A stretch of DNA of 64,000 bases, taken from positions 6,076,001 to 6,140,000 of the forward strand of contig NZ_CP045096.1 of the NCBI RefSeq assembly GCF_009184865.1. The letters run 5' to 3'. The translations under genes and the position numbers were made by a program. The DNA comes from Streptomyces phaeolivaceus (GTDB lineage Bacteria > Actinomycetota > Actinomycetes > Streptomycetales > Streptomycetaceae). This document shows, piece by piece, positions 8,239-62,310 of this stretch. Position 1 is the first letter of the stretch, and every line of letters starts with the position of its first letter. Below the pieces are notes generated by a model. The model was not told where the DNA came from. It worked only from the letters and a program-made list of their open reading frames with translations, and did no database searches.

Positions 8239-8243
8239 CGGGC

Positions 8244-36729: not shown

Positions 36730-36866
36730 GGTGGACAGCCGGTGGACAGACGCCTTTGGACCGTGCATCACGGGGTGGCCCAGGTCAACCTGTCGCATGT
36801 GCTCTGATCAGGAAAAACGTCACCACGCAGCACGACGAGGCATCAGGCAACACGATCGCTCACGGT

Positions 36867-36911
36867 CTCGTAATGCGTAGGTCTCGGGTTCGAATCCCGA
36901 AGGCGGCTCCA
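36867..36911 (+). tRNA. 3' half of a tRNA-Thr(CGU) gene (att remnant, not functional)
   Basis: CTCGTAATGCGTAGGTCTCG and the following GGTTCGAATCCC-GAAGGCGGCTCCA give the anticodon loop (CGT), the 3' side of the anticodon stem, the variable loop, the complete T-arm and the 3' acceptor strand of tRNA-Thr. The 5' half (D-arm, 5' acceptor strand) is absent, so it cannot be a working tRNA. It is typical of an attachment site left when an element integrates into the 3' end of a tRNA gene. Confidence 0.8.
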
Positions 36912-36916
36912 TGGTG

Positions 36917-36946
36917 AACCCCAGGTCGGGCCTTTGACCTGGGGTT
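36917..36946 (+). terminator. Terminator hairpin behind the tRNA-Thr remnant
   Basis: AACCCCAGGTC (36917-36927) pairs with GACCTGGGGTT (36936-36946), followed by TCTCGTTTTGG. It is the usual terminator of a tRNA gene and is kept in copy B; copy C retains only its 3' arm at 62034. Confidence 0.8.
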
Positions 36947-37213
36947 TCTCGTTTTGGTTGACCTTGCAATTCGGGCTAATCGGGCATGTCCGGTCTAGGC
37001 ATTGCAATGCGTAGGTCTGGAGTTGACGGCCAGTGTCGGTTGCGGATCGCGGGGCTGTGACCTCGGCATTTGTTCATGGCTGTCGATCTCCCCGGCCCAG
37101 TCCGGTTCGAGCTGGTGGCCATGTGGTGGCCAGGCGTGCGGAGGTCGTGCAGATGGCTCCTAGGTCAGCCTCGCGGTTTTCGCATGGGAGTTGTGCCATC
37201 CGGACAATCGCGC

Positions 37214-37474: not shown

Positions 37475-40400
37475 ATGCGCGGTGCGGACGGAGTGGTGGA
37501 CGAGGGTGTCCCGGCACGGTCGGGGACGGGCGCGGAGGGGTCCGTGACCGAGGTGGTGCGGCGGCGGTGGGGTGTCGCCCTGGGCGGGGTGCTCCCGGCG
37601 CGGTTCTTCGAGCCCGGCTGGGCCTACGAGGAACGGGTGGAGCGTCGTTGTCCCGTCTGCGAGGGGGAGTTGCACGCGCTGCGCAGGCCGTACGAGTCGC
37701 AGGGGCGGGTGTACCGGTATGCCGCGCTGGTCTGTCCTGGCTGCCCCACCGCGTTCAGTCTCGCTGACCTGGGGGTGAAGACGTACGACCAGCTCACGGC
37801 CGCGTCTTCGGCGGCCGTGTCTGTGCCGCTGGGGCCCTGCCCGAGTGGTCCCGGGGTCGGCGTGACCGCGATCCGCGTCCCCGGGCAGCTCCCCGGGGCA
37901 ATGCGCGGGGGACACTCTCCGGCGTGGCCGGACGACCTGGCCGTGCCGGAGCAGACCGAGAAGCAGGCCCTGTTGTGGTGCAAGGTGACCGATCCGGACT
38001 GGCGCCCCACCGAGGAGGCGGTCGCGGCCGCGGAGGACGTGCGGGTGATCCTGCCCGAGGGTCCGGGATACGACGCGCTGCGCACCTGGCTCGCGGAGCG
38101 CGGCGTCCCGCACAGGGGCAGCCGCCACTGGGAAGAGGCCGAACAGGTCGGCACGGTCGATGAGTTGGGCGGCCATACGGATCTGGTCGCGGTCGGTGCG
38201 GGTGGCGCTGTCCCGGCCGCGGGTCCCTGGGCGGTGGCGGCCCGGGACGCCTTCGCCGCGCAGTGGGACGCGCTGGAGGAGTTGCCGGAGGGCGACGGCA
38301 GCGCGTATGTGCCGGTGGAGAGGCTGGTGCCCGCCGAGTGGGCCGCGCTGCTGCCGCATCCGTCGTTCAACCCGGGCCAGGCGGCTGCCGTTCCCGTCGT
38401 ACGGGAGGGCACCGGGCATCTGGTGGTGGTGGCGCCGACCGGTGCGGGCAAGACCCCGATCGGCATGGTCGCGGCGCTGGACGCGCACGCCCGGGGTGAG
38501 AAGGCCGCCTGGCTGGTGCCGCAGCGCTCGCTCACCGACGAACTCGACCGGGAGCTCCAGCTGTGGCGGCGCCGAGGTCTGCGCGTGGTACGGCTGACCG
38601 GTGAGGCCGCCGTGGACTCCGGGCTGATCCGGGCGGCCGATGTGTGGGTGGCGACGACGGAGAAGTTCGAGGCGATCTGCCGTGCGGGATCGTTGCGTGA
38701 CGCGCTCGCCGAGGTGGGCTGTCTGGTTGTCGACGAGATCCATCTCCTCGGCGATCCGGTGCGTGGTGCCGTACTGGAGGCGCTGCTCGCGCGGGTGCGG
38801 GAGGACGGTGCGGGGGCGCGGATCGTCGGGCTGTCGGCGACGGTCGCCAACGCGGACGAGGTGGCCGAGTGGCTGGGCGCCCGCCTGGTCCGCACGGCCT
38901 GGCGGCCTACCCGGCTGACCTGGCAGCTGCCGGTCCTGCCGACGGTGGACGAGGCGGACTGGGCGGCGCGGGCCGCCGTCCGCACCGAGGCCGCCGTACG
39001 GATCGCCCGCGGGGTCGGTGCGGGCGGCGGCAGCGTACTGGTGTTCTGCGGCAGCAAGCGACGGGTGCGGGCGACCGCGCTGGCGCTGGCCGCCGACCGT
39101 GGCGTGTCGACCGCCGGCGTGGACGCGGACGACGCCGAACTCGTCGAGCGGCTGTGCACCAAGGCCGGGGTGCGGCTCCACTACCGGGACTGGCCCTACA
39201 AGCGGGACGCCGAGCAGGCCTTCCGAGCCCGCGAGGCGGACATCCTGGTCGCCACCTCCACCGTTGCCGCGGGCGTCAACCTTCCCGCCCGGGCCGTGAT
39301 CGTCGCCGACACCACCATCGGCCTGGACCGCGCCGAGGTGTCCATGGTCCAGCAGATGTTCGGACGGGCGGGCCGCATCGGCGCCGGGGAGCGCGAGGGC
39401 TGGGCGTTCCTGCTCGCCGACTCGGGGGAACGGGCGCACTGGCAGGCCCGGCTCGCCGCCGGATACACGGTGCGGTCACGGCTGGGCGACCACCTGCCCG
39501 ACCACCTCCTCGCCGAGGTCGTCCAGGAACGGGTGTCCACGGTCGAGGAGGCGGAGCGGTGGTGGTCGGGGACGCTGGCCGCGCACCAGGGACACGCCGG
39601 TGCCGAACCCCTGCGTGAGGCGGCGGCGTTCCTCACGACGGCGGGCTGTCTACGCGCCCCCGCTGGCGAGGACCATTGGGAGACGAGCCCGCTGGGCCGA
39701 CTGACCAGCCGCTTCATGGTGGACGCCGCCCTCGCCGACGAGCTGGCCACCGCAGTGCGAGAGGCCCCGGTGCCTGAAGACGCCTTCACCGCCGAGCGGT
39801 CGCTGGCGGCCCTGCTCAGCATCTGCCTCCCGGTGCTGGAACAGGCGCCGTTCACCGACCGGGCCCGTACGGCACTGCGCCGCGTACTGCGCGAGGCGGA
39901 GCAGGAGCAGGAGCAGGAGCAGGAGCAAGAGCAGCCGCAGGAGACCGAGGAGTCCGCGCAGGACGAGCCGAAGCCGGTGGCCGGAGACCTCGCCCGCGCG
40001 GTCCTCCACCTAGTCGCCGACCGCCCCGGCCTCTTCCGCGGTCGTCCTGGTTACGTGCTGGGCGTCCCCGTCGACTCCATGACCGGCATCCTGGAGGAGG
40101 CCCGGCGCTACCTGGCCTGGCTCGGCGCGCAGGGCCCGATCGGCACGGTCCACCCGTGGGTGGCCGTCGTCGCCGGTGACCTGGCCCAGCGCATCCGTTG
40201 GCGTACGCTCGGGCCCGGCCGAGGGGCGGGACGGCTGCTGTGGATGTGCGAACGGATGGCCACCGCCCCGCTCGCACCCGACCTCGTTCCCCGGATGTGG
40301 CGCGCGGCCCGCGCCCGCGACGTCGACGCCCCCGACTGGAGCGGGACGACACCGCCGGGCGACTGCGCCCTGCCCCCGGACCGCTACCGCGCGCTGCTCG

Positions 40401-40666
40401 CGGAGCGTGCCACCGGGGTTCGTCTGGACCTTCGGGAGGACGACGGCGAGGTCCGGGTGGCGGCGCCGTCGGGAGCGGTGGTCCGGCTGTGGAACGGGGC
40501 GACGACCACCCTGCACAGCGGCGACGGCGAGGCGGCCACATTGCTCCTGCCGCCCGACGACCCGTCGGAAAAATCGCCCGGCAACAGCGGCGCGGCCGTC
40601 TTCACCAGGGGCGGTGACCGGCTGGGGACGGGGTGGCTCGGGGCGTACTCGGCGATCCGCCGCTGA
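37475..40666 (+). CDS. Ski2-like superfamily 2 helicase adjacent to Wadjet
   Basis: From the ATG 37475 this is a 1063-residue helicase. An N-terminal zinc-binding part (RCPVCEGELHALRRP ... LVCPGCPTAF) precedes the motor: Walker A VAPTGAGKTPIGMVAAL, motif Ia WLVPQRSLTDEL, DEIH box LVVDEIHLLGDPVRGAVLE, IVGLSATVANADEVAEWLG, ATSTVAAGVNLPARAVIVAD and QMFGRAGRIGAGEREGW. These are Ski2/Hel308-type motifs. A Gln-Glu run (EQEQEQEQEQEQPQ) marks a flexible insertion before the C-terminal domain. It lies 200 bp upstream of jetA on the same strand and inside the same repeat-flanked cassette. It is not part of canonical JetABCD; an accessory role is inference. Confidence 0.8.
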   Translation: MRGADGVVDEGVPARSGTGAEGSVTEVVRRRWGVALGGVLPARFFEPGWAYEERVERRCPVCEGELHALRRPYESQGRVYRYAALVCPGCPTAFSLADLGVKTYDQLTAASSAAVSVPLGPCPSGPGVGVTAIRVPGQLPGAMRGGHSPAWPDDLAVPEQTEKQALLWCKVTDPDWRPTEEAVAAAEDVRVILPEGPGYDALRTWLAERGVPHRGSRHWEEAEQVGTVDELGGHTDLVAVGAGGAVPAAGPWAVAARDAFAAQWDALEELPEGDGSAYVPVERLVPAEWAALLPHPSFNPGQAAAVPVVREGTGHLVVVAPTGAGKTPIGMVAALDAHARGEKAAWLVPQRSLTDELDRELQLWRRRGLRVVRLTGEAAVDSGLIRAADVWVATTEKFEAICRAGSLRDALAEVGCLVVDEIHLLGDPVRGAVLEALLARVREDGAGARIVGLSATVANADEVAEWLGARLVRTAWRPTRLTWQLPVLPTVDEADWAARAAVRTEAAVRIARGVGAGGGSVLVFCGSKRRVRATALALAADRGVSTAGVDADDAELVERLCTKAGVRLHYRDWPYKRDAEQAFRAREADILVATSTVAAGVNLPARAVIVADTTIGLDRAEVSMVQQMFGRAGRIGAGEREGWAFLLADSGERAHWQARLAAGYTVRSRLGDHLPDHLLAEVVQERVSTVEEAERWWSGTLAAHQGHAGAEPLREAAAFLTTAGCLRAPAGEDHWETSPLGRLTSRFMVDAALADELATAVREAPVPEDAFTAERSLAALLSICLPVLEQAPFTDRARTALRRVLREAEQEQEQEQEQEQPQETEESAQDEPKPVAGDLARAVLHLVADRPGLFRGRPGYVLGVPVDSMTGILEEARRYLAWLGAQGPIGTVHPWVAVVAGDLAQRIRWRTLGPGRGAGRLLWMCERMATAPLAPDLVPRMWRAARARDVDAPDWSGTTPPGDCALPPDRYRALLAERATGVRLDLREDDGEVRVAAPSGAVVRLWNGATTTLHSGDGEAATLLLPPDDPSEKSPGNSGAAVFTRGGDRLGTGWLGAYSAIRR

Positions 40667-40803
40667 GCCGGCCGCAGGACGGGTCCCTACGGGGGCCACC
40701 GCCCGGCAGGGAGCGTGAAACAGGCGCACGGTAGCACAAGTGGCATGGGCCGAGGAGCGGCTCACACGCACCGATCGGGGTGCGGCAGACTGGTGTGGAT
40801 CCG

Positions 40804-40833
40804 CTGCTGCACGTTCGGCCGGACGTGCAGCAG
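40804..40833. promoter_or_regulatory. Perfect 11-bp dyad upstream of jetA
   Basis: CTGCTGCACGT (40804-40814) and ACGTGCAGCAG (40823-40833) are perfect inverted repeats around TCGGCCGG, 33 bp before the GTG of jetA. It can form a hairpin in the leader or serve as a dimer operator. The ribosome site GAAGGGAAG follows it. Confidence 0.6.
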
Positions 40834-40866
40834 CCGAAGCAGGGAAGAAGGGAAGCCCACAGTTCC

Positions 40867-42414
40867 GTGAGTGACGAGTTCGACGTCCCGGAGCCCGATG
40901 CCGCGGACCCCGTCGACGAGGGCGCGTTCGGTATCGACGCGTTCTCCCTCGACGACCGGCTGCGGCTGTTCCACTTCGCCGCCGCCGAGAAGCGTCACGA
41001 GTACCTGTGGCTGCTGCGGGCCTTCGACCGCGGACGTGCCAACTACCAGGTGCTGCTGCACGCCTCGGACGCCGTGGGACTGCTGGAGCGGCTCGCCGCC
41101 GACCATCCCGGCGCGGGCGTCGTCGGAGGGGCGGCCGGTGTGCAGCCGTTGCTCGACGCGCTCGCGGAGTGGCAGGTGCTGGACCGGTCGTACGACGGGA
41201 CGCGCGCCGCGAACCTGGCCGAGTACCGCAACCGGCACTACGTCTACCAGTTCACGCAGGCCGGGTACCGGGCGTACCGGGCGGTGGAGGACGTGCTCGG
41301 CGCGAGCCTGGAGGACGCCCAGCTCTCCCGTCTCGTCTTCCCCGACATCCTCGGCGACCTGCGCGCGCTGGCCGAGGCCAACACGGCGGGCGACGGCGAG
41401 GAGGTGTACCGCAAGCTCGGCCGTCTCGACTCCGTGCTGAACGAGATGGCCCAGCGCGCCGCCCGCTTCTACCTCATGCTGGGCGACCTGGCACGCACCA
41501 ACGACACCCGGCCCGAGGTGTTCCTCGCCCACAAGGACGCGCTCCTCGCGCACATGCGGGAGTTCACCGCGGAGCTCGGGCGTTACGCCCCGCTGCTCGC
41601 GGAGGCCGTCGAGAAGGCCGCGGCCACCGGTGTGGACCGGATGGTCGAGTTCGCGGCCGAGGCCGACGAGCGGCTCTTCCGCAGCCCCGCCGAGAGGCTG
41701 GCGGACTGGCGGCACCGGTGGGAGGGCATCGTCCACTGGTTCGCGGAGCGCGAGCACAGCGAGACCGAGCGGCTGCAGGACGCCACCGTCACCGCGATCC
41801 GCTCCGTCCTCGCCCTGCTGCGCCGGGTCACCGAGGCGCGCCGGGGCGGGGTCAGCCGGGAGAGCCAACTGCGCCATCTCGCCCAGTGGTTCACCTCCTG
41901 CGAGAGCGACGAGGACGCGCACGCCCTGTTCCAGGCGGTCTTCGGGCTCGGCGCGCCCCGCCATATCGCGGTCCCGTACGCCGACCCCGAGCAGATTCCC
42001 GGGCGTACCTCCTGGTGGGAGGCCGAACCGGTCGAGCTGGCCCGCACCCTGGTCCAGTCCGGCCGCACCCCCGCCCTGCACGGCCCCGGCCGCATCGAAC
42101 GCGACGACGAGCGGCGGGCGCTGCTGCGCGCCGAGCAGCTCAAGGAGCAGGCCGAGCGCCGGGACGCCGCGAACTCCCTCGCCTCGGACGGCGTGTACGG
42201 CCGGACCCTCGACGAGCCCGAGACACGCGCCCTGCTGGCCCTGCTGGACGTGGCGCTCGCCGCCCGTGTCCCCGCCAGCCGCCGGGTCACCGCCGCCTCC
42301 GGCTCCGCCCACGGGGTACGGCTCACCCTCACCCCCGCCGAGGGCTCCACCACCGTCGACACCGCGCGCGGGCGTCTCCATCTCGACGGGCTGCGCCTGG
42401 AGGTCACCGTATGA
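40867..42414 (+). CDS. jetA: JetA, Wadjet type I subunit (DUF2397, kleisin)
   Basis: This 515-residue protein matches the TIGR02677/DUF2397 family: LFHFAAAEKRHEYLWLLRAF near residue 40, then LDALAEWQVLDRSYDGTR, FYLMLGDLARTN, SCESDEDAHALFQAVFGLG and RTSWWEAEPVELARTLVQSG. In Wadjet, JetA is the kleisin that closes the JetC ring. The complex extrudes DNA loops and JetD then cuts small circular plasmids. The GTG 40867 follows GAAGGGAAGCCC. It heads a jetA-B-C-D operon with overlapping stops and starts. Its stop TGA overlaps the ATG of a 16-codon minicistron. Confidence 0.92.
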   Translation: MSDEFDVPEPDAADPVDEGAFGIDAFSLDDRLRLFHFAAAEKRHEYLWLLRAFDRGRANYQVLLHASDAVGLLERLAADHPGAGVVGGAAGVQPLLDALAEWQVLDRSYDGTRAANLAEYRNRHYVYQFTQAGYRAYRAVEDVLGASLEDAQLSRLVFPDILGDLRALAEANTAGDGEEVYRKLGRLDSVLNEMAQRAARFYLMLGDLARTNDTRPEVFLAHKDALLAHMREFTAELGRYAPLLAEAVEKAAATGVDRMVEFAAEADERLFRSPAERLADWRHRWEGIVHWFAEREHSETERLQDATVTAIRSVLALLRRVTEARRGGVSRESQLRHLAQWFTSCESDEDAHALFQAVFGLGAPRHIAVPYADPEQIPGRTSWWEAEPVELARTLVQSGRTPALHGPGRIERDDERRALLRAEQLKEQAERRDAANSLASDGVYGRTLDEPETRALLALLDVALAARVPASRRVTAASGSAHGVRLTLTPAEGSTTVDTARGRLHLDGLRLEVTV

Positions 42415-42461
42415 GCCGGGTCGTCGTGAGCGAGGCCGTCGTGAGCGAGGCCGTCGTATGA
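42411..42461 (+). CDS. 16-codon minicistron bridging jetA and jetB
   Basis: An ATG at 42411 overlaps the jetA stop (ATGA) and encodes MSRVVVSEAVVSEAVV. Its own TGA (42459-42461) overlaps the jetB ATG (again ATGA). The middle is a 15-bp tandem repeat, and ATGAGCC occurs at both ends, as if the jetB start was duplicated with filler between. It may work as a coupling relay. Whether the peptide matters is unknown. Confidence 0.5.
   Translation: MSRVVVSEAVVSEAVV
42423..42452 (+). repeat. 15-bp tandem repeat at the jetA-jetB junction
   Basis: GTCGTGAGCGAGGCC occurs twice in a row (42423-42437, 42438-42452), in frame with the minicistron, so copy-number change would not break it. Confidence 0.9.
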
Positions 42462-43873
42462 GCCGTGCCGCCGAGGGCGTCTCCCCGCTCGAACTCGCCG
42501 ACTACCAGAAGGCGGTACGGCTCGTCCTGCGGCACCCGCTGGTCACGCCCGGGTACCCGGACAAGGCCGCGCTGGCGACCGTGCGCCGCTGGGCCGATCA
42601 GCTGCGCACCGACCTGATGGAGGTGCTCGGGTACCGGCTCGTCACCACCGCCGACACCGTCCGGCTCCAGCGCGCCCAGGACGGCCTGGACGCCACCCGC
42701 CCGGCCCTCACGCGCGCGGGACGCCCTTTCGACCGCCGCCGCTACGCCTACCTCGTCCTCGCCCTCGCGGCCCTGGGCCGCCATGGCGCGCAGGTGGCGC
42801 TCGGCGAGCTGGCCGACGCGGTCGCCGCCGACGCCGTACGCATCGACGGGCTCGGCCTCGACACCGCCCGCAAACCCGACCGGGACGCCTTCGTCGACGC
42901 CGTCACCTGGCTCACCGAACGCGGCGCGCTCACCCTCGCCGACGGTTCCGCCACCGCCTGGGCCGGCGATCCCGAGCGGGCCGAGGCGCTGTACGACATC
43001 GACCGGGAGATCCTCCTCGCCGTCCACCACCCGACCCGCGTGCTCCAGCATCTGACCTCGGTCACCGCGCTGCTGGACTCCTCCGGCGCGCTGGGCCTGT
43101 CCGCGGGCCGTGCCGCCCAGCGCCGCGACCAGGCCCGCCGCGCGCGTCGCCTGGTGCTGGAGAACCCGGTCGCGTACTACGCCGACGCCGACAGCGAACT
43201 CCTGGGCCAACTGCGGGCTCCCGCCCTCGCCGAGGACCTGGAGCGGCTGACCGGGCTGTCGGTGGAGCGGCGGGCGGAGGGCGTGGCGCTCGTCGACACC
43301 TCGGGCAGGCTGTCCGACGTCCGTTTTCCCGGCGGCGGTACGGTCGCGCAGGCCGCGCTGTTGCTCGCCGCCCGGATCAGCGCTGCCGTGCAGCGTTCCG
43401 GGCGGCACGCCCTCGAACTGCTGCCCGCACCCACGGCCGCCGAACGCCTCGCGGCCCGGGCCCGGCGGATCGACGGCGCGCTGCCGTCGCGTGGGACGGT
43501 CACCGAACTCACCGAGCCCGATGAGGAGTCGGCGTACGAGACGGTCGGCGACGCGGATCACGAGCCGGGCGAGACCCGGTACCCCTTCGTCACGGCCTCC
43601 TGGCTCCGGGGCAGGCTCAAGGAGATCATCGGCGAGTACGGCGCGGGCTTCGCCGCCGATCTGCGCGGCGACCCGGACCGGCTGCTCGACCAGGCACTCG
43701 GCCTGCTGGCCGCCATGTCGCTGATCGTCCGGGTCGACGGCGGGGCCCTCGCGCTGCCTCTGCTCGCCCGTTACCGAGGGGTCACCGCCCGGGTGAAGAC
43801 CCGTACGGCTCCCCAACCGCCCGCCCAGACCGCCCTGTTCGACGACGAAACCGCCAAGGACCCGACTCCGTGA
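42458..43873 (+). CDS. jetB: JetB, Wadjet type I subunit (DUF2398, KITE-like)
   Basis: This 471-residue protein matches the TIGR02678/DUF2398 family: LADYQKAVRLVLRHPLVTP near the N-terminus, FDRRRYAYLVLALAALGR, YDIDREILLAVHHPTRVL and the C-terminal RYPFVTASWLRGRLKEIIGEY with winged-helix character. JetB dimerises and binds JetA as the KITE subunit of the SMC-like motor. The ATG at 42458 follows the minicistron stop overlap. It shares a 4-bp GTGA overlap with jetC. Confidence 0.92.
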   Translation: MSRAAEGVSPLELADYQKAVRLVLRHPLVTPGYPDKAALATVRRWADQLRTDLMEVLGYRLVTTADTVRLQRAQDGLDATRPALTRAGRPFDRRRYAYLVLALAALGRHGAQVALGELADAVAADAVRIDGLGLDTARKPDRDAFVDAVTWLTERGALTLADGSATAWAGDPERAEALYDIDREILLAVHHPTRVLQHLTSVTALLDSSGALGLSAGRAAQRRDQARRARRLVLENPVAYYADADSELLGQLRAPALAEDLERLTGLSVERRAEGVALVDTSGRLSDVRFPGGGTVAQAALLLAARISAAVQRSGRHALELLPAPTAAERLAARARRIDGALPSRGTVTELTEPDEESAYETVGDADHEPGETRYPFVTASWLRGRLKEIIGEYGAGFAADLRGDPDRLLDQALGLLAAMSLIVRVDGGALALPLLARYRGVTARVKTRTAPQPPAQTALFDDETAKDPTP

Positions 43874-50240: not shown

Positions 50241-50378
50241 CGGTGGCCGCTCGGTGGCCGGACGCCTTTGGACGGGGCGGCATGGGGTAGCAGGGGGCAA
50301 CCTGCCGTAAGTACTCTGATCAGGCACGACATCACTCGGCGGCATCACGTGGTATCCGGCAACACGATCCCTCACGGT

Positions 50379-50423
50379 CTCGCAATGCGTAGGTCTAGGG
50401 TTCGAATCCCGAAGGCGGCTCTG
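50379..50423 (+). tRNA. Degenerate 3' half of tRNA-Thr in repeat B (att remnant)
   Basis: CTCGCAATGCGTAGGTCTAG continues with GGTTCGAATCCC-GAAGGCGGCTCTG. The anticodon triplet is CGC instead of CGT, and the last bases differ from copy A. No 5' half exists, so it is an att scar and not a gene. Confidence 0.75.
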
Positions 50424-50428
50424 TGGTG

Positions 50429-50458: not shown

Positions 50459-50866
50459 TCTTGTTCCGGGTGACCGTGGAATCCGGGCTGATCGGGCACC
50501 TGTGGTCTACGCATCGCAATGCGTAGGTCTGGGATCGACTGGCAGTGGGCGCTTCGGTTCCCAGGGCTGTGACCTGGCTTTTTGTGCCGTGCTGCCGGTC
50601 GGCTCGGGTCTGTCGGCTTCGGTGTGGTCGCCATGGGGTGGCCAAGCGTGCAGTGATTGTGTAAATGGGTCCCGATCTGCCGTGCGGTCACAGGCGTGCT
50701 TGGGGCCGCAGGGTTGTGCCATCCGGACGATCCCACGATCAACGCGCTCCACTGGCTGAACCACGCCAAGGAAGAACTCCCCGTCCACCACACGCACGGT
50801 CGTCCCTCGCCCGGCTGATCCACGAGTGACACCGCCTGAGAGGGCCAGGGGTGATCGGGCGGAGGC

Positions 50867-52253: not shown

Positions 52254-52255
52254 GG

Positions 52256-53732: not shown

Positions 53733-56700
53733 ATGACTCGGCCGCCACTCGTCGAAAGTCTCCGCGCGGCCGTCCACCGGCACGATCGGAAGGCCGCCGA
53801 CCGCGCCGTTGCAGGCCTGCTGCGCCGGGAAGCCGAAGTGCGGCGGACGCGCGCGCTGGACAACGTGGCAGTCAACGCTCTGGGCGCGGCGCTCGCACTG
53901 GTGAGCCCCCGGCGACTCAACGACACGATCGTGTTGCTGGTGGCAGCGGTCGAAAACGTGACGCCCCCGGACTCCTTCCGGATCCGGGTCCTTCTGCCGT
54001 TCCTCACCCGGCTGTTCGAACGGGCGACGGCCTCCGGCGAACCCGAGGCCCTGGACGCCCTGCTCCATCTCACCGAGGCCCTGGAACGGATCCCGAACGA
54101 ACGGCCCGAGATCCAGGTCCTCACCGGCTTCTACCGGGCCCAAGCCTGGCTCCAGCGGTACGCGAGCGACGACGGCACTCTCTCCGACCTGGACGGGGCT
54201 GTCACCGCCTTGCGCGCCACGGAACAGCGGGCCTCGACGAGAGCCCCGGAGGCGATGGGCCGTCTGGAGGTGCTCGAGCTGCTCGCTTCCTCCCTTGCCC
54301 TGCGGGGAGAGCTGACCGACAGCGGTCAGGACATCGACGACGCGGTCGACACCGCGGAACGGGCCCTGGAACTGGCCCGGCGCACAGAGCCCGCGCGCTG
54401 CTCCGAACACCAGGCGGCGGTGGCACGCAATCTTTCGTGGCGCTACGAGCGGTGCGGGCGTTCCCAGGACCTCGACCGGGCCCAGCCGCTGGCCGAACAG
54501 GCCCTGGCCGTAGACCGCGACAACGCCGACCGGCTGAGGCTGCTCGGCGACGTACTCCGTCAGCGCGGTGTCGCGGAAGTCCGGGAGGACACGCTCCGCC
54601 GGGCCATCGGGCTGCTTCGCAAGGCTGTCGAGGTCTCACCGGCGGACCCGGACGTACGAGCCAGCCTGGCGCTGGCGGTGGCCGGTGTGTATGACCTGAC
54701 GGACGACAGCAGGGAACTGCGCGAGTCGCTCGCGCTGCAGCGGTCGGCGGTTCGCGACACTCCGCGCACAGAGCCCGTCCGCGCCAGATACCTGTGCACG
54801 CTCGGCGTCGGGCTGACCCAGTACTTCGAGCGGTACGGCGACCTCGACTCCCTCGACGAGAGCATCGAGACACTGCGCGACGGGCTGGCGACCGCAGGCG
54901 ATGAGCACCCGGTACGTCCCGCCTTGGCCAACGCCCTGGCGACGGCGCTGGAGTGCCGGTCCCGCACCCGCCGCGGCAAGCGCACCGATCTGCCCAAGGC
55001 CCTCGAACTCCAGCATGGCGTGGTCACCTCGGTGCCCGTCGAGTCCCCGAGAAGGGCCGAGGCGGTGACCGGTCTGAGTCTGCTGCTGCGGCAGTCGCAG
55101 CGGGTCACCGGCAAGGAGAGGCAGGCGACGCGGCTCGGGGAACAGATGCTCGACGAGATCGCGCGCACCGGCACCTTCACCCTCCCGCCCGTGCTTCCGT
55201 CCGGCTCCGGCGATCCGAGCCCACTTCGCGAGGCGGTACGACTGGCACGTTCGGCTCTGGCCGACACGCCTGCGGGCGGAGCCCAGCAGGCTGTCCGGCT
55301 GACCAGCCTCGGGCAAGCGCAGGCAGAGCTCTTCGAGGCCACCAAGGATCCCGCCGACCGCGCGCGGGCCGTTCAGACCCTCGCCACGGCAACCCGGAGT
55401 TCCACCGCGAGCGCCCACATCCGGGCCATCGCGGGCCGGTCCTGGGGACGACTGGCCGCGGACGCGGCCGACTGGGCGTCCGCCGCCGAAGCCTACGGCG
55501 CCGCCGTCAAGGCCTACGCGGCGCTCGGTGACAGCGAACTGGAGCGCGGCGACCAGGAGTTCAACCTGCGGAGCTATCGGCATTTCGCAAGCAACGCCGC
55601 CGCCAGTGAGCTGCGGTACAGCGGCGACGCCGCCGCGGCGCTCGAAGTGCTGGAAGCCGGCCGCGGAGTGCTCCTGGCACGCGCCCTGGACGACGGCACA
55701 GGCCCGGCGTCGTCGGCGCGCTCTCCCTCACCCGGGGCACGCGAGCCCGTGTCCGTCGACCTCGCCCCTCCTCGTGTCGCGGAGTCGGGACCGCTGGTGG
55801 CCGTGAACGTGAGCGAGTACGGATGCCACGCGCTGCTGGTCACCACGGCCGGGGTGTCGACGGTGCCGCTGCCCGACCTGACGACGACCGCCGTCGAGGA
55901 GCGGGCCGAGGCCTTTCTCACGGCCCTGCACATCCTGGCCGGCGGCGACCGCTTCGATCCCCTGGACGCCCAGGCTGCGGGCCGCTTCGTCAACCGCACG
56001 CTCGGGTGGCTGTGGGACACCGTGGCTGAGCCGGTGCTGACAGCCCTCGGCCTTGCCGACGCACCGCACGGAGCAGAGACGCTGCCCCGGCTGTGGCTGA
56101 TGCCGACCGGGCCCCTGGGAGTGCTGCCCTTGCACGCCGCGGGCCACCATACCGCCGCGGACCGCCGTACCCTCCTCGATCGCGCGGTGCCGTCGTACAC
56201 CACCACCGTGCGCGCTCTGGTCCACTCCCGTCGACGTATCGGAACCGGCTCCGGCAGACCTCCCATCAGATTTCCCGTGAAACCCCTGGCGGTCTGTGTT
56301 CCCCGGCTGCCGGACGCCCCCGAGTTGCCGGCGGCGGAGTGGGAGGTGGCGAGCCTGCGGACGCGGCTCACCGGGCTGCGGGAACTGCGTGAGGGCGACG
56401 CGCGCCGCGCCGACGTGCGGACCATGCTCGCCCAGAGCGACTGGGTCCACTTCGCATGCCATGCGACCAGCAACCTCGATCAGCCGTCGGCCAGCCGACT
56501 CCACCTGGCCGACGGTCCGTTGTCCGTCGCCGACCTGACGGCGATCCGGGCCCCGGACGCGTTCCTCGCCTACCTGTCGGCCTGCGGCACCGGTCGCCCC
56601 GGTGTGAACCTGCCGGACGAGGTCATCCACATGTCCTCGGCGTTCCACATGATCGGATACCCGCATGTCGTGTCCACCCTCTGGCCGGTGGGCGACAGGG

Positions 56701-56855
56701 CCGCTGCCACGATCGCGGACGACGTGTACAAGGAGATGCTGGTCGAGGGAACGGAACCGGCTCGCGCCGTCCACGCCGCAGTACGAAACCTCCGGGACAC
56801 CAACGAGGGCTACAGGCCGACTCAGTGGGCCTCACACATTCACACCGGGCCGTAG
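53733..56855 (+). CDS. TPR-CHAT (caspase-like) protease
   Basis: This protein of about 1040 residues has many TPR-like helical repeats over residues 1-640 (for example LAEQALAVDRDNADRLRLLG and GLLRKAVEVSPADPDVRASL) and a C-terminal CHAT peptidase domain. The catalytic His lies in WVHFACHATSNLDQPSASRL (about residue 910) and the catalytic Cys in FLAYLSACGTGRPGVNLPDE (about 950), followed by HMSSAFHMIGYPHVVSTLWP. Both catalytic residues are present. CHAT proteases act as effectors in several defence systems, activated by partner proteins. The ATG 53733 is preferred, but an in-frame ATG at 53703 is possible. The gene follows the zinc-ribbon gene on the same strand. Confidence 0.85.
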   Translation: MTRPPLVESLRAAVHRHDRKAADRAVAGLLRREAEVRRTRALDNVAVNALGAALALVSPRRLNDTIVLLVAAVENVTPPDSFRIRVLLPFLTRLFERATASGEPEALDALLHLTEALERIPNERPEIQVLTGFYRAQAWLQRYASDDGTLSDLDGAVTALRATEQRASTRAPEAMGRLEVLELLASSLALRGELTDSGQDIDDAVDTAERALELARRTEPARCSEHQAAVARNLSWRYERCGRSQDLDRAQPLAEQALAVDRDNADRLRLLGDVLRQRGVAEVREDTLRRAIGLLRKAVEVSPADPDVRASLALAVAGVYDLTDDSRELRESLALQRSAVRDTPRTEPVRARYLCTLGVGLTQYFERYGDLDSLDESIETLRDGLATAGDEHPVRPALANALATALECRSRTRRGKRTDLPKALELQHGVVTSVPVESPRRAEAVTGLSLLLRQSQRVTGKERQATRLGEQMLDEIARTGTFTLPPVLPSGSGDPSPLREAVRLARSALADTPAGGAQQAVRLTSLGQAQAELFEATKDPADRARAVQTLATATRSSTASAHIRAIAGRSWGRLAADAADWASAAEAYGAAVKAYAALGDSELERGDQEFNLRSYRHFASNAAASELRYSGDAAAALEVLEAGRGVLLARALDDGTGPASSARSPSPGAREPVSVDLAPPRVAESGPLVAVNVSEYGCHALLVTTAGVSTVPLPDLTTTAVEERAEAFLTALHILAGGDRFDPLDAQAAGRFVNRTLGWLWDTVAEPVLTALGLADAPHGAETLPRLWLMPTGPLGVLPLHAAGHHTAADRRTLLDRAVPSYTTTVRALVHSRRRIGTGSGRPPIRFPVKPLAVCVPRLPDAPELPAAEWEVASLRTRLTGLRELREGDARRADVRTMLAQSDWVHFACHATSNLDQPSASRLHLADGPLSVADLTAIRAPDAFLAYLSACGTGRPGVNLPDEVIHMSSAFHMIGYPHVVSTLWPVGDRAAATIADDVYKEMLVEGTEPARAVHAAVRNLRDTNEGYRPTQWASHIHTGP

Positions 56856-57155: not shown

Positions 57156-57386
57156 ATGACTGCTCTGACGATTCGGGACGTCCCGGATGACCAGATCCAG
57201 ACCTTGAAGGTTCGTGCCGCCCAGGCCGGCCAGTCCCTCCAGGCTTACTTCCTCGATCTCATCGCGCGCGAGACGTCCAAGCCCACCATGGCGGAGATGG
57301 TGGCGCGCCTGAACCGGGAGACCACGGCCAGTGTCAGCACGGAGGACGTGCTGGCCGCGATCGACGAGGCCAGGACCGGGAGGTGA
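57156..57386 (+). CDS. vapB: Ribbon-helix-helix antitoxin (FitA/VapB type)
   Basis: This 76-residue protein starts MTALTIRDVPDDQIQTLKVR, the beta strand and helix of FitA/Arc-type ribbon-helix-helix proteins, followed by AAQAGQSLQAYFLDLIARET. The acidic C-terminal tail (SVSTEDVLAAIDEARTGR) would block the toxin active site. Its stop overlaps the toxin GTG by 4 bp (GTGA), as usual for such pairs. The start lies 6 bp behind a -10 box, suggesting leaderless translation. Confidence 0.85.
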   Translation: MTALTIRDVPDDQIQTLKVRAAQAGQSLQAYFLDLIARETSKPTMAEMVARLNRETTASVSTEDVLAAIDEARTGR

Positions 57387-57793
57387 GTGAGACGGTCGTC
57401 ATGGACTGTTCCGCTCTCGTGCACTTCCTCACCAACCGCGACCCGCTCGGCCTTGCCGTCCGCACCCGGGTGGGTGCCGCCGATGCCGTCGCCGTGCCCA
57501 CGCTCATCGACTACGAGATCCAGTCCGCGCTCCTCGGTATGAGGAGAGGGGGCAAGCTCACGGCGCGTGAAGTGGACCAGGCTATTGATGCCTACCGGCA
57601 GCTCCCAGTCGTCCGACACGAGACGCTCATCCTCTGGGATCGGGTTCAGGCTCTCCACGGGAACCTGAGCGCCTACGATGCCCAGTACGTTGCCTTGGCC
57701 GAGGCTCTCGCCGCAACGCTGATCACCAGTGATGCGAGGATCGAACGGAGCGGTGCCGCGAAATGCGGCATCGAGGTCTTCGCCTCGAACTGA
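57383..57793 (+). CDS. vapC: PIN-domain ribonuclease toxin (VapC type)
   Basis: This 136-residue PIN protein shows the acidic tetrad: VVMDCSALVHFLTNRD (Asp), TLIDYEIQSALLGMRR (Glu), LSAYDAQYVALAEALAATL (Asp) and LITSDARIERS (Asp). VapC toxins cut tRNA or rRNA and are held inactive by their antitoxin. The GTG at 57383 overlaps the antitoxin stop. All four acidic residues are present, so it should be active. It ends 130 bp before the left part of repeat C. Confidence 0.88.
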   Translation: MSETVVMDCSALVHFLTNRDPLGLAVRTRVGAADAVAVPTLIDYEIQSALLGMRRGGKLTAREVDQAIDAYRQLPVVRHETLILWDRVQALHGNLSAYDAQYVALAEALAATLITSDARIERSGAAKCGIEVFASN

Positions 57794-57923: not shown

Positions 57924-58070
57924 CGGTGGCCAGCCGGTGGCCGGACGCCTTTGGACGGCGCGGCACGAGGCATCACCGATCAGGACGCCGCAGCCGCTCT
58001 GATCAGGCAGAACAGCACCAGGCAGCACCACCGGGCAGCACCACCGGGCACCACCCGACACGATCCCTCG
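57924..58070 (+). repeat. Attachment-site-like repeat C, left part
   Basis: GGTGGCCAGCCGGTGGCCGG and CGCCTTTGGACG, then CTCTGATCAGGC and ACACGATCCCTC match the first 140 bp of copies A and B. The match stops where the tRNA-like part should begin. A 13-bp tandem duplication (GCAGCACCACCGG, twice) lies inside at about 58023-58048. The missing right part is found 3.96 kb further on. Confidence 0.75.
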
Positions 58071-58094
58071 CGCGATCCGGAGCCCGTGTGGTGA

Positions 58095-58125
58095 ATAGAT
58101 GCATCTATAATAACTGTATCTATAT
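58095..58125 (+). promoter_or_regulatory. Promoter with palindromic operator before the AAA ATPase gene
   Basis: ATAGATGCATCTAT (58095-58108) is a perfect 14-bp palindrome. It overlaps a consensus TATAAT box at 58106-58111. The surrounding 40 bp are strikingly AT-rich for this genome. A dimeric repressor bound here would block transcription. Confidence 0.6.
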
Positions 58126-58140
58126 ATGGGAGCTGGTGCT

Positions 58141-59610
58141 GTGGACAAGCCCGCCGAGATGTTCGACCGTGTCTTCGAATGGGCCGAGCTGACCCGGTTC
58201 GCTACCCTGCCGGGCCCGCGCGCCACGCTGGGCGTGGTCTCCGGCCGCCGCCGACAGGGCAAGACCTTCCTGCTCGACGCAGTCACTCGTGCCAGTGGCG
58301 GCTTCATGTTCACCGCCACCGAGACCACCGAGGCCGACGCCTTGCGGCAGTTCGGTGAGGCACTCGCCCGTTATCGCGGGCAGCCCACTCCGTTCCGTTT
58401 CGCGCACTGGGACGAGGCGGTCACGGAGCTCATGCGCATCGCCGACGCGGGCGGCCCCACCGTGGCGGTCATCGACGAGTTCCCCTTCCTCGCCAAGGCA
58501 TCTCCCTCGCTGCCCTCGATCATCCAGCGCGCCCTCGATCCTGCCGCCCAGCACACCAACACTCCGGTGCGTCTCCTGCTGTGCGGCTCCGCGCTGTCGT
58601 TCATGGGACGGTTGCTGTCCGGCAATGCTCCGCTGCGTGGCCGGGCCGGCCTCGAACTCGTGGTCCCGACCCTGGACTTCCGGCTCGCGGCCGAGTTCTG
58701 GCAGATCGACGACCCGCGCACCGCGCTCCTGACCCATGCCGTCGTCGGGGGTACGCCCGCCTACCGCCGTGAGTTCACCCAGGGGGACACCCCTGCCGGG
58801 CCGGACGACTTCGACGACTGGGTCGTCCGTGCCGTCCTCAACCCGGCGCGTCCGCTCTTCCGGGAAGCCCGCTACCTTCTCGCCGAGGAACCTGAACTCC
58901 ACGACACCGCGCTGTACCACTCGGTGCTGGCAGCCATTGCCGCCGGTAACGCCGCTCGTGGTGGCATCGCCGACTACCTGGGGCGCAAGTCCACCGACCT
59001 TGCCCACCCGCTGAGCGTCCTCCAGGACGTGGGCATGATCACCCACGAGGCCGACGCCTTCCGCCGTAACCGCTCCGCCTACCGCATCGCCGAACCGCTC
59101 GTCACCTTCTACCACGCGGTCATGCGCCCGGCCTGGGGCGATCTGGAACGCCCCGGGCGGGCGCCCGACGTGTGGCGCCGCGCCCAGTCCACGTTCCGCG
59201 GCAAGGTCGTCGGCCCGCACTTCGAGCAGGTCTGCCGGGAATGGGCCCGCTGGCACGCGGCCCCCGATACTCACGGCGGACATGTCACGCGGGTCGCCGG
59301 CGGGACCGTCAACGACCCCGCCGCCCGGACCAGCCACGAAGTCGACGTCGCCGTCCACGGTGAGACCCACGGCGGCGGCCAGGCGCTGCTGGCCATCGGC
59401 GAAGCGAAGTGGAGCGATGTGATGGGACTCGGCCACCTGGAACGCCTGCGGCACATCCGCTCCCTCCTGACCAGGAACGGCATGGCCACCGCAGCGACAC
59501 GGCTGTACTGCTTCAGCGGCACCGGCTTCACCGATGAACTGCATCACCTCGCGGAGGACGATCCCGCGATCCAACTGATCGACCTGACCCGCCTTTACCA
59601 CGGAGAGTGA
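58141..59610 (+). CDS. AAA ATPase with C-terminal nuclease-like domain (DUF234-type)
   Basis: This 489-residue protein has Walker A LGVVSGRRRQGKTFLLDAV (about residues 26-44), Walker B VAVIDEFPFLAK (about 110), a sensor-like LLLCGSALSFMGRLL and a winged-helix region (YLGRKSTDLAHPLSVLQDVG). The C-terminal HEVDVAVHGET ... LLAIGEAKWSDV looks like a PD-(D/E)xK nuclease core (Asp, then Glu-x-Lys). This is the architecture of archaeal-type ATPases with DUF234, of unclear role. GTG at 58141 is preferred (GGGAG 8 bp before); an ATG at 58126 in frame is possible. It is the first gene inside split repeat C. Confidence 0.8.
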   Translation: MDKPAEMFDRVFEWAELTRFATLPGPRATLGVVSGRRRQGKTFLLDAVTRASGGFMFTATETTEADALRQFGEALARYRGQPTPFRFAHWDEAVTELMRIADAGGPTVAVIDEFPFLAKASPSLPSIIQRALDPAAQHTNTPVRLLLCGSALSFMGRLLSGNAPLRGRAGLELVVPTLDFRLAAEFWQIDDPRTALLTHAVVGGTPAYRREFTQGDTPAGPDDFDDWVVRAVLNPARPLFREARYLLAEEPELHDTALYHSVLAAIAAGNAARGGIADYLGRKSTDLAHPLSVLQDVGMITHEADAFRRNRSAYRIAEPLVTFYHAVMRPAWGDLERPGRAPDVWRRAQSTFRGKVVGPHFEQVCREWARWHAAPDTHGGHVTRVAGGTVNDPAARTSHEVDVAVHGETHGGGQALLAIGEAKWSDVMGLGHLERLRHIRSLLTRNGMATAATRLYCFSGTGFTDELHHLAEDDPAIQLIDLTRLYHGE

Positions 59611-59865
59611 CTCCCGAACTGCGGTACCGGGGGTCGGTCGGCCGCACCGACCGGTGGACCTGTATGAGGAGTTCGGGCTCTTCGGAGAGGAGGGCGCGGG
59701 CTCGTACGACCGTGCGCGATCCGTCGTCGGACGGTCAGGGCGAGCGCGGGCAGCCACCACGACATGTCGGTGGTGGGCCGCAGATCCTCGGCCGAGAGTG
59801 GTACGTCGCGATTCGGCGGTAGCGTGGCGAGGCGAGCAAGGCTGCGGACAGGCGGGGCGGATTTC
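59611..59865. other. Spacer between the AAA ATPase and the large unknown gene
   Basis: No family-like frame is seen in this 255-bp gap. It should contain the promoter of the downstream gene. The sequence GGCGAGGCGAGCAAGG recurs as a weak repeat near 59826. Confidence 0.35.
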
Positions 59866-61980
59866 ATGCGGATGCGGTACGAAGCCGGGGCCGAGGAGGA
59901 GTTTGAGGCGGCGTGTGGGCTGCTGGTCGACCGGCTGGTGCGGTGGGCCGGGGGGCAGGGGACGCCGGTGGACGCGTTCATGGCGGAGGCGGCGTTGGAC
60001 TACCGGCACCGGGCGACCGTCGACGGTCGGTTGGGGTTGTGGGAGCCGCGGCATGTGGAGGAGTTGCTGCTGCACTGGTTCCCCCAGCAGGTCACCGAGT
60101 TTCCCGGGGAGGAGCCCGGCGACGGTCCGGGCACGTTGCGCACCCTCCTGCGCTTTCTGCACGCCGTGCGGTTGGCGGACCCACGCGGCCCCGCGCTCGA
60201 TGGCTCACTCGGCGCGGTGGACGCGGCCGAGGAATGGTATCCGGAGGCGATGGCGGACCGTGACCGGTGGGGCCTGGCGAAGTTCTGGGCGGTGACCGCT
60301 GCCGAGCAGGGCGTGGACGTCATGGACGGGGCGGCGTTGCAGCGGTTCGCGGAGCGTGCTCAGCGCGGGGAGGTCGCCTACGACCAGCGGGCCCTTGACG
60401 AGATCATGGACCGGCGGCTGAAGGGCCGCGTACCGGTCGACGGGGCCCGGGCTGAGCCGCAGCTGCCGGTGGTGCTGCCTTCGGACAGTGAACTGCGACG
60501 ACCGGCCGAGGCGTCGACGACTGTGGCGCAGTTGCGGAGCCTTGCGGAGTGGGCGGGGCGGGAGGGACGGCTGGTGACGGCAGCGGGGCGGCTGCGGATG
60601 GCCGATGCCCGCGAGCTGGTGGACGTGCTGGGCACCGGGGACAGGACCGAGGGGGTGCGCTCTTCGAACGACCTGCCGCGGCTGGGGCTGTTGGTGGAGT
60701 GGGCGAAGAAGGCGCGGCTGGTCCGGGTCGCCAAGGGCCGTCTGTACGCGGTGGCCAAGGCCCGGCCGGTGCTGGCCGACCCGCTTCAGCTCTGGTCGCG
60801 CGCCTTCGACGCTCTCTTCGAACTGCGGCAGGCCCTGATCGGTGCGCGCAGCGGTTGGCACGTCGAGTCGATGCTCTTCGACGTCTACGACGAGATGCTG
60901 GAGGACGTGCTGAACACGCTTTACAGCCTGCCGTGCCCGATGCCCTGGCCGCGGCTGCGTGACTCCGTGCATCTGAGCTACCGGGCACACTTCCAGCTGG
61001 ACGCCGGCTCGGACCTCCGGCAGCGGATGTGGTTCGAGCACGCCGACCGGGACCTGCGCGCCATGTTCGACGTGCTGGTGGACATGGGCGCGGTCGAGCG
61101 TGAGCAGGGGATGGCCGATCCGGCGTTCCTGGAAACCGATCTCTCCGACGCGGAGGATTTCGGACCTGAACTGCCCGCGGGCCTGCCGCAGGAACTCACA
61201 GAGCTGCTGGGTGTCATGGGAGCGGCAGCGGATCCGGCGGAGGCACGGGAGCGTGACCGCCGCTTGCGTGAGGAGCTGACCGCCGGGCCCGTCGAACTCA
61301 TTCGCCTCACCGAACTGGGAACCCGGGCCGTACGGCAGCGGCTACTGGCGGTCGGCCGGGACGCACCCCTGGTCGGTGAGCTGGTCCAGGCAGCGCCGGC
61401 CGGCTTGCTGGGGGCACTGGCCGAGGAGTACGACCCGGATACCGCCCGTACGGAACTGGCCGGATGGATTTCGGCCCGCAGGGACCGGGCTGCCGCACTG
61501 CGGCAACTTACCGACGCCGTACGGACCATGGCGGGTGCGGCGTTCCGCACGCGTGCCCAGGCGATGCTGGACGTGCTGGCGGTGGCGTGGCCCGACGGCG
61601 AGGGCGAGCGGCTGCTGCGTGCGCTGCGCGATGACGCCGTACTGGCACCGCTCGCTCTGAGCGCGCTGGCGCAACGTGACCTGTTGTCCCCCGAGGACAT
61701 GACCGACGCCGAGCATCTGCTGGTGCTCGCCGAGAGCCTGCTCCAGCTTGTGGAGCTGGCCGGTGGCCCGGGCGGGGCTGGGGAAGCGCTGCGCGCCCAG
61801 GGGCCCGAGGCCAGGGACGCGGTCGCCGCCGCGCTGGACTCCGCGCATCCGGACCGGGCCGGACTTGAGGAACTCCGGCACCTCGCGGCCAGGGCCTGGG
61901 GTACGTCCGCCGTTCGTCATGGCGGCGTCCGCGGGCGTGGGCGTTCCACGGGCAGGGGCGGGCGCAAGCGGCGCCGGTGA
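59866..61980 (+). CDS. Large conserved actinobacterial protein of unknown function
   Basis: This 704-residue soluble protein starts MRMRYEAGAEEEFEAACGLL at the ATG 59866. It contains winged-helix-like segments (LGLLVEWAKKARLVRVAKGR, RLYAVAKARPVLADPLQLW), a long helical C-terminal half (LAEEYDPDTARTELAGWISA) and a basic tail (GVRGRGRSTGRGGRKRRR) that could bind nucleic acid. The general make-up resembles the frameshifted protein at 28701-29965 (both have paired winged-helix-like blocks and a LEELRHLA-like helical end), but I cannot prove homology by eye. It is the last gene before the right part of repeat C. Confidence 0.7.
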   Translation: MRMRYEAGAEEEFEAACGLLVDRLVRWAGGQGTPVDAFMAEAALDYRHRATVDGRLGLWEPRHVEELLLHWFPQQVTEFPGEEPGDGPGTLRTLLRFLHAVRLADPRGPALDGSLGAVDAAEEWYPEAMADRDRWGLAKFWAVTAAEQGVDVMDGAALQRFAERAQRGEVAYDQRALDEIMDRRLKGRVPVDGARAEPQLPVVLPSDSELRRPAEASTTVAQLRSLAEWAGREGRLVTAAGRLRMADARELVDVLGTGDRTEGVRSSNDLPRLGLLVEWAKKARLVRVAKGRLYAVAKARPVLADPLQLWSRAFDALFELRQALIGARSGWHVESMLFDVYDEMLEDVLNTLYSLPCPMPWPRLRDSVHLSYRAHFQLDAGSDLRQRMWFEHADRDLRAMFDVLVDMGAVEREQGMADPAFLETDLSDAEDFGPELPAGLPQELTELLGVMGAAADPAEARERDRRLREELTAGPVELIRLTELGTRAVRQRLLAVGRDAPLVGELVQAAPAGLLGALAEEYDPDTARTELAGWISARRDRAAALRQLTDAVRTMAGAAFRTRAQAMLDVLAVAWPDGEGERLLRALRDDAVLAPLALSALAQRDLLSPEDMTDAEHLLVLAESLLQLVELAGGPGGAGEALRAQGPEARDAVAAALDSAHPDRAGLEELRHLAARAWGTSAVRHGGVRGRGRSTGRGGRKRRR

Positions 61981-62029
61981 ATGGGGGTGCCGCTCGGTTC
62001 GGAGGGCGGTCGTGAGGACCTGGCGGTGC

Positions 62030-62310
62030 TCGGACCTGGGGTTTCTTGCTTTGGTTGACCTTGGAATTCGGGTTGATCGGGCACGCGTGGTCTGTGCATC
62101 GCACTGCGTGGGTCTGAGGTTTGAAGTCGGTGGCGGTTTTGCTTCGCAGGGCTGTGAACTGGTCTTTTGTCTCTTGCGGTCGCTCTTCTGCGGGCCGGTC
62201 GGATTGGTGTGGTGGCCGTGTGGTGGCCGAGCGTGCAGACCTGCTCCCGGCGAACCGCGAGATTGGTGGTCCACAGAGGGGCCAAAGTTATGGCGTCCCG
62301 ACAATCGGGC
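62030..62310 (+). repeat. Attachment-site-like repeat C, right part
   Basis: It starts with the 3' arm of the terminator (ACCTGGGGTTTCTTG at 62034), then GGTTGATCGGGCACGCGTGG and a degenerate core ATCGCACTGCGTGGGTCT (62097 onward). A GGTGGCC pair (about 62211-62229) and CCCGACAATCGGGCG at the end follow, in the same order and spacing as copies A and B. With 57924-58070 it makes one repeat lacking only the tRNA-like core, replaced by the 3.96-kb ATPase cassette. Confidence 0.75.

Follow-up and report, generated by a model that had tools for sequence, protein, structure and literature searches.

A tandem tRNA-Thr array in Streptomyces phaeolivaceus contains an integrase-poor class of elements with double-core attachment sites

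Integron arrays consist of integrase-free cassettes that follow a single entry site in one orientation, and cis-mobilizable elements (CIMEs) have attachment (att) sites, contain no integrase and accrete in tandem beside integrase-bearing elements at one site. The term CIME, together with a reference to Pavlovic 2004, is found in the available excerpts of PMC3146451, which describe Dehalococcoides islands that are arranged in tandem behind one RNA gene, ssrA, 15 of them devoid of an integration module. For a Streptomyces population, the excerpts of PMC9513070 report accretion of actinomycete integrative and conjugative elements (AICEs) at tRNA-Arg, the presence of an integrative and conjugative element (ICE) and an AICE at tRNA-Thr and the trace of an element without traB, along with a discussion of mobilisation by a helper. 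In Streptomyces turgidiscabies, three att copies divide the island PAISt into modules that are excised by one tyrosine recombinase, and in PMC4057263 the authors compare the island with integrons. Here, we describe a stretch of 64,000 bp from Streptomyces phaeolivaceus (genome G000, C2:6076001-6140000, on a contig of 10.1 Mb), termed the window throughout, which is part of a tandem array of elements inserted in one orientation at a tRNA-Thr(CGT) gene. On the evidence of sequence comparison, integrase-free members of this array (class II) have likely been moved by the integrase of a second class of elements (class I), acting either in trans or on a composite of both.

An unbiased repeat search of the window recovered a conserved non-coding repeat with a terminator-like hairpin at 36729-37214 (site A), at 50241-50737 (site B) and in two halves at 57924-58040 and 62024-62311 (site C), thus independently returning every copy proposed in an original prediction made for this DNA. 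A and B share 77% identity over 432 bp (E = 6e-90), and the halves of C match both of them with E-values of 2e-14 to 2e-39. As had been proposed, A and B carry the 3' end of a tRNA-Thr gene, to which their cores are identical at 43 of 43 and 41 of 43 positions, respectively, and both are oriented in the same way as this gene. The boxes flanking the cores are indeed paired, with a period of 11, although they are not uniformly GGTGGCC as predicted: the left pair of A reads GGTGGAC and the right pair of B GGTCGCC followed by GGTGGCC, with both pairs of C being GGTGGCC. These repeats are att sites. If elements are taken to be delimited by successive cores, each would have a core and a P' arm on its left and a P arm and a core on its right, so that the junction of two elements resembles a complete attP. 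The parts of sites A and B are as follows (window coordinates).

36730..36747, + strand: P-arm box pair of site A (GGTGGAC twice, period 11), marking the right end of the element that precedes A
36750..36760, + strand: anchor ACGCCTTTGGA in the P arm of site A, preceding the core by 117 bp
36867..36909, + strand: core of site A, tRNA-Thr(CGT) 3' end, 43/43
37006..37017, + strand: second (degenerate) core of site A, conserved in long arms
37114..37131, + strand: P'-arm box pair of site A (GGTGGCC twice, 204 bp past the core), marking the left end of cassette A-B
50242..50259, + strand: P-arm box pair of site B (GGTGGCC twice), right end of cassette A-B
50379..50421, + strand: core of site B, 41/43
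50626..50643, + strand: P'-arm box pair of site B (GGTCGCC, GGTGGCC), marking the left end of cassette B-C

No tRNA gene in the 64-kb window is complete. The full-length gene for tRNA-Thr(CGT), which had been expected outside of it, is located at C2:5822118-5822193, 254 kb left of the window. With copy A as query, ten matches were obtained in the same genome, nine of which reside on the + strand of contig C2 between 5,822,150 and 6,160,414. Given the position of the tRNA gene and the extent of these matches, the array encompasses about 338 kb and ends about 20 kb beyond the right border of the window, with cores at 5822150 (inside the tRNA gene), 5856184, 5994350 (s3), 6010754 (s4), 6112867 (A), 6126379 (B) and 6160337. 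The integrases that had likewise been sought outside the window are represented by two genes.

C2:5822320-5823924: tyrosine integrase, adjoining the tRNA gene
C2:5863240-5864781: tyrosine integrase, 7 kb right of the second site

A search of the genome with PF00589 detected no tyrosine integrase between 5994350 and 6160337. Element 1 (tRNA gene to 5856184) and element 2 (5856184 to 5994350) each have their own integrase, the former with GCGTGAGCG boxes and the latter with GGAGGCC boxes at both ends. From s3 onward, the elements have GGTGGCC boxes at their left ends (with one variant box in B), and at their right ends they carry GGTGGCC, at A GGTGGAC and at the end of the array GGAGGCC.

We searched 295 genomes with copy A, scoring two places per genome, and among the matches listed chose 24 genomes with repeated matches, which constitute part of those with two matches. 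Our tally covers 21 of the 24 and G000, amounting to 22 genomes, 23 stretches and 70 sites; G193 is outside of it, and G056 and G264 are represented by a single P' arm each, solely in the alignment of long arms described below. After addition by hand of three degenerate sites (in G085, G028 and G010) and removal of G252, which offers no partner site, 50 elements were obtained. Intact junctions share the same order of two boxes of 7-8 bp (period 11), the anchor GGACGCCTTTGGA, 116-118 bp, the 43-bp core and a P' arm that carries another box pair, a layout that is expected because stacking predicts the P arm of the left element, a core and the P' arm of the right element. The anchor GGACGCCTTTGGA is absent from elements of the GCGTGAGCG type. 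A scan of named genomes for the P-arm pattern returned at least 120 stretches, and the 80 listed belong to Streptomyces, Actinacidiphila or Streptacidiphilus. Within these 80, 73 of 82 P arms are found at a tRNA-Thr core, 71 of the 73 at a distance of 116-118 bp; the single Streptacidiphilus locus among the matches listed contains no core. The original prediction had named as its refutation that the repeat be a dispersed intergenic family with no relation to the borders of cargo, and the location of these P arms at tRNA cores speaks in favour of the prediction. Membership in such a family, or in an RNA family, would agree with the conserved non-coding character of the repeat and its terminator-like hairpin. 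It is contradicted by the P arms at tRNA cores, by the location of the copies behind tRNA-Thr in one orientation where they bound different cargo and by a search of the window that gave no Rfam match when gathering thresholds were applied, and can hardly be maintained. Stacking at tRNA-Thr is in our view well supported.

The P' arms distinguish two classes of elements, which we have defined irrespective of integrases. In class I, the boxes of a short P' arm are located about 90-105 bp from the core. In class II, to which the elements of the window belong, they are found at about 204 bp, with a second, degenerate core in between, and both the long-arm boxes and the second core are required for assignment. 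On this basis, the 50 elements comprise 11 of class I, 31 of class II and eight that remain unclassified. An alignment of 36 long arms, 35 of which carry their box pair 203-208 bp from the core, reveals as conserved blocks the terminator, TTGACCTTGGAA, the second core GCATCGTAATGCGTAGGTC, GACCTGGGCTTTTG, the boxes and GGCGTGCAG, which are separated by poorly conserved DNA; the predicted second core of the repeats is thus real. Since the second core was part of the selection for this alignment, we repeated the count without it and found it in 31 of 32 sites with long-arm boxes. In seven more sites the second core is present and the long-arm box test failed. The second core was not found in any of 13 short arms, where the best match extends to 7 of 12 bases. 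The constant spacing of the P' boxes suggests that the second core is important for the complex.

Both classes differ strongly in their content of integrases. Using a hidden Markov model (HMM) built in-house from seven G000 integrases, we obtained a match in 8 of 11 class I but only 2 of 31 class II elements (Fisher p = 5e-5) and, at E <= 1e-10, in 6 of 11 versus 1 of 31 (p = 5e-4). One of the class II matches is an open frame of 105 residues and the other is weak (E = 9e-9). The eight unclassified elements, two of them with an integrase, are outside of these tests. In the window, neither A-B nor B-C contains a tyrosine integrase (PF00589 and our own HMM) or a serine recombinase (PF00239), which agrees with the prediction that its cassettes have no integrase of their own. 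We considered and rejected the possibility that class II relies on a hidden serine recombinase, as in 18 genomes the sole PF00239 match within integrase-free intervals is located in segment s4-A, in a search that was run without the class II intervals of G260, G264, G056, G235, G252 and G064. This protein of s4-A, a 102-kb segment left of A that may be a composite with another element, is a large serine recombinase of 698 residues (window 21226-23322, + strand) with Resolvase, Recombinase and zinc-ribbon domains, which weakly resembles XisF with a score far below the cut-off.

Concerning the identity of the integrase-bearing neighbours, element 1 and an element of G057, both of class I, encode a MobA/VirD2-like relaxase. 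In the arrays of G000 and G057 we found no match to PF01580 (FtsK/TraB), on which ground AICEs were rejected for these two arrays; one element of G228 contains a weak FtsK match barely above the cut-off. FtsK/TraB is also absent from the Pfam-scanned proteins of A-B and B-C, a search that did not extend to other conjugation families. Neither of the two integrases in the G000 array is of the IntI type found in integron cassette arrays: with 30.4 and 39.8 bits, their scores for TIGR02249 (integron integrase) are far under its cut-off of 265.

Among 30 class II elements with readable ends, 25 carry an identical box 7-mer at both ends, where shuffling would expect 11.8 and none of 20,000 shuffles reaches 25. 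In G228, three consecutive neighbours with GGTGGAC, GGAGGCC and GGTGGCC boxes are each matched at their ends; the middle one (GGAGGCC) has a long arm without second core and is unclassified. The left ends of the tallied class II elements fall into three types, namely GGTGGAC (17), GGTGGCC (10) and TG(C/T/A)GGCC (4), and two elements of a GGAGCGC type with second core are unclassified. In a genus-wide search scoring four candidates per genome, relatives of the G057 integrase were detected in at least 102 of 295 genomes. The boxes nearest to its closer relatives are GGTGGCC (G057, G225 and G262), GGTGGAC (G010 and G289), GTGAGGCC/GTGCGGCC (G091), GGAGGCC (G000) and GGGGAGCGC (G014, with a similar box in G225). 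A second integrase copy in G010 has ACGCGTGGC as nearest box, and TGCGTGAG is found at 19 of 22 loci with 56-60% identity to the G057 integrase. Judged by these boxes, an integrase of this family adjoins, in one genome or another, every box type of class II as well as both remaining long-arm types. In G195, G116, G292 and G267, a class II cassette occupies the tRNA gene itself, and the stretch examined contains no element with an integrase; these four genomes are outside the listed 102, and other tyrosine integrases are present among the matches listed for them.

We have considered that class II might instead originate from ordinary decay, with old integrase-bearing elements having each lost their integrase independently to become immobile and their arms persisting as relics. 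Weak integrase remnants in the arrays, class I elements devoid of an integrase match (3 of 11) and the missing cores of junction C would conform to this scenario, which we nevertheless regard as unlikely in light of the long P' arm and second core that are common to class II (31 of 32) and absent from short arms, the matching boxes at both ends and the spread of a cassette in an integrase-free state.

The latter is illustrated by a class II cassette that is shared between two species (G116 and G195), where 17 kb align at 96.6% identity compared to 76% in the DNA beside the tRNA gene. At the right border, the identity drops from 98-100% before the core to 24-42% after it, and beyond the border none of 7 kb could be aligned. 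This near-identity suggests that integrase-free cassettes may move with borrowed enzymes and would be consistent with mobilisation with or by an integrase-bearing neighbour. A second case concerns the Wadjet cassette A-B of the window, whose counterpart in G062 shares 91.5% identity across 13.2 kb and is flanked by different arms beyond both cores, as anticipated for the stepwise stacking at one tRNA-Thr site that had been predicted. Taken alone this case is modest, because the chromosomal DNA left of the tRNA gene is itself 82-88% identical between G000 and G062 in its main pieces, and the pair G116/G195 makes the stronger case for mobility. Streptomyces exchange chromosomal DNA, and together with left borders that coincide with the chromosomally conserved tRNA gene this raises the question of whether the cassettes could have spread by homologous recombination in the course of chromosomal transfer, via the shared tRNA and neighbouring DNA and without any integrase. 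With the right border in G116 and G195 located at the core and unrelated DNA beyond, and with arm types that match at both ends, such an origin appears even less probable than decay. Matches to a class II P' arm are found in at least 31 of the 295 genomes, G000 included, with two places scored per genome.

Site C, which had been interpreted as one copy split by an insert, displays features that support a different description.

57925..58072, + strand: P arm of junction C (GGTGGCC twice, anchor at 57945), core missing
58087..61980, + strand: probable former cassette in C
62030..62311, + strand: P' arm of junction C, including a degenerate second core; core missing; boxes GGTGGCC twice at 62211-62228

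The left part of the probable former cassette is 90% identical to a cassette of G022 and its right part 82% identical to a cassette of G281. In G022, a terminator, a second core and a P' arm precede the same gene as in the insert. With the G022 cassette matching from 58087, C is probably better described as two junctions that lost their cores: one cassette would end on the right at the first, another would begin at the second, and a former cassette would be enclosed by both. Its right border has no counterpart in the compared data. At another locus (L201:454-484, + strand), a P arm is followed immediately by box pairs of a different type and most of the core is absent, which resembles a deletion that fuses two junctions.

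Collectively, these observations can be accommodated in a mechanism where elements would integrate successively and in one orientation into the 3' end of tRNA-Thr(CGT) by means of tyrosine integrases. A class I element of the same arm-box type would supply the integrase in trans to a class II cassette, or the cassette would excise jointly with a class I element as a composite. The P-core-P' site of the excised cassette would then be recombined by an integrase of matching type with the tRNA gene or with a junction, and transfer between cells could be mediated by class I relaxases, such as those encoded by element 1 and the G057 element, or by other carriers. Several points weigh against this proposal. 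Besides the three class I elements that do not match an integrase, two of the eight class I matches are weak (E about 1e-8). Five of 30 class II cassettes are unmatched at their ends, which include s4-A and the element from B to the end in the described array, G057_4302058, G079_4402502 and G028_8188, where latter perhaps reflects a reading offset. The integrases next to GGTGGAC boxes, the commonest class II type, appear damaged, with in-frame stops in G010 and a split into two pieces in G289, so that the search yielded no intact integrase on the GGTGGAC side. A pairing by nearness is weaker in G262 and G091, where 8-10 kb separate the integrase from the site. The left border of the cassette in G116 and G195 lies within the tRNA gene, where the chromosomes are homologous anyway. 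Finally, selecting genomes by matches to copy A favours its box types and, since some cassettes are also homologous, the counts are not independent, and the support, from which we infer excised circles, is wholly computational; neither a circle nor a pair of occupied and empty sites was observed, though no search was made for sister strains that differ in a single cassette.

The cargo of the window comprises the following proteins.

37544..40666, + strand: DEAD-box helicase, Hel308-like below the curated cut-off, best PADLOC match HamB/SngC-like (cassette A-B)
40795..49264, + strand: Wadjet type II operon JetA, JetB, JetC, JetD (cassette A-B)
49377..49931, - strand: Uma2-family putative endonuclease (cassette A-B)
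51363..52253, - strand: 296-residue protein without Pfam, PADLOC or NCBIfam match (cassette B-C)
52683..53651, + strand: 322-residue protein without Pfam, PADLOC or NCBIfam match (cassette B-C)
53733..56855, + strand: protein with a CHAT domain and a weak resemblance to the TPR-CHAT protein Csx29, scoring far under the cut-off (cassette B-C)
57156..57793, + strand: FitA-like ribbon-helix-helix (RHH) antitoxin paired with a PIN toxin (cassette B-C, close to its right end)
58141-59610, + strand: AAA ATPase, PDC-S27 candidate (insert of C)
59866-61980, + strand: 704-residue protein without assigned family (insert of C)

The AAA ATPase and the 704-residue protein (58141-61980) may constitute an undescribed defence pair, because relatives of either part are found in the cassettes of G022 and G281. 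The label of defence cassettes introduced with the original prediction fits the window better than the family, and defence accounts for only part of the cargo, which also includes an RHS protein, a glycosyltransferase-rich segment, metabolic genes and a toxin-antitoxin pair. Wadjet proteins are found in three clustered elements (with Pfam names for the G000 members only), and ten scanned proteins of the G195 cassette are mostly metabolic or regulatory. A search for a gene common to all class II elements identified none, the broadest family being present in 8 of 45 clustered elements, with five elements above 45 kb excluded. Outside the window, the interval s3-s4 encodes an RHS/PT-HINT protein of 2326 residues (L021:650-7630), whose relatives are found in 8 of the 45 clustered elements, often with the same partner family. 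Left of A, the window contains an unusual tandem run of eight consecutive open frames of 423-433 residues (3040-13427, + strand), of which the two scanned are EryCIII-like glycosyltransferases, beside it an HpaB-type 4-hydroxyphenylacetate 3-hydroxylase (15654-17210, + strand) and, immediately left of A, an SNF2-type helicase followed by a 699-residue protein without Pfam match (31400-35160, + strand).

The original prediction had regarded the described form as new. This does not apply to accretion and cis-mobilizable elements, as accretion, helper mobilisation and integrase-free islands are already covered in the excerpts of PMC9513070, PMC4057263 and PMC3146451, and the novelty resides in the dedicated integrase-free att class. 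In the literature searched, which mostly lay outside subscription journals, and as far as its texts were available, no such class with a second core or with helper-matched arm types was found. The combination of box pair, GGACGCCTTTGGA, about 117 bp, tRNA-Thr core, second core and box pair provides a signature that would mark the borders of cassettes to the base, and the proposed relationship would account for the gathering of defence systems, RHS proteins and metabolic genes, without integrases, behind a single tRNA gene in Streptomyces. As the arm boxes predict which integrase mobilises which cassette, mobilisation in trans is directly testable.

Among described systems, class II elements resemble CIMEs in having att sites for the host site, in lacking an integrase and in being stacked near integrase-bearing elements. 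They differ in their own att architecture with a long P' arm and second core, in their occurrence also without integrase-bearing neighbour and in arm types that match at both ends. With the elements of PMC9513070 they share the genus, the tRNA site and the presence of several elements between direct repeats. The latter were identified through conjugation genes, and the excerpts of this study describe no integrase-free class with arm boxes; the arrays of G000 and G057 show no FtsK/TraB match. PAISt differs in its site in bacA, its 8-bp palindrome, its two modules of 105 and 569 kb and its single recombinase (PMC4057263, excerpts), and the Dehalococcoides islands in their serine recombinase, their ssrA site and their 20-bp repeat, with arm types unmentioned in the available excerpts of PMC3146451. 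Like the cassettes of integrons, class II elements are integrase-free and follow a single entry site in one orientation, close to which some genomes have an integrase, but they mostly measure 5-25 kb, carry a tRNA-derived core and paired arm boxes and are accompanied in the G000 array by two integrases that score far under the integron-integrase cut-off. We tentatively propose, with close to even confidence though somewhat short of it, that class II elements are integrase satellites of Streptomyces and close relatives, which would use a dedicated double-core site and whose end boxes would track the type of the circulating tRNA-Thr integrase. If so, class II would act like an integron for large cargo at a single tRNA gene and would obtain its enzyme from other mobile elements.

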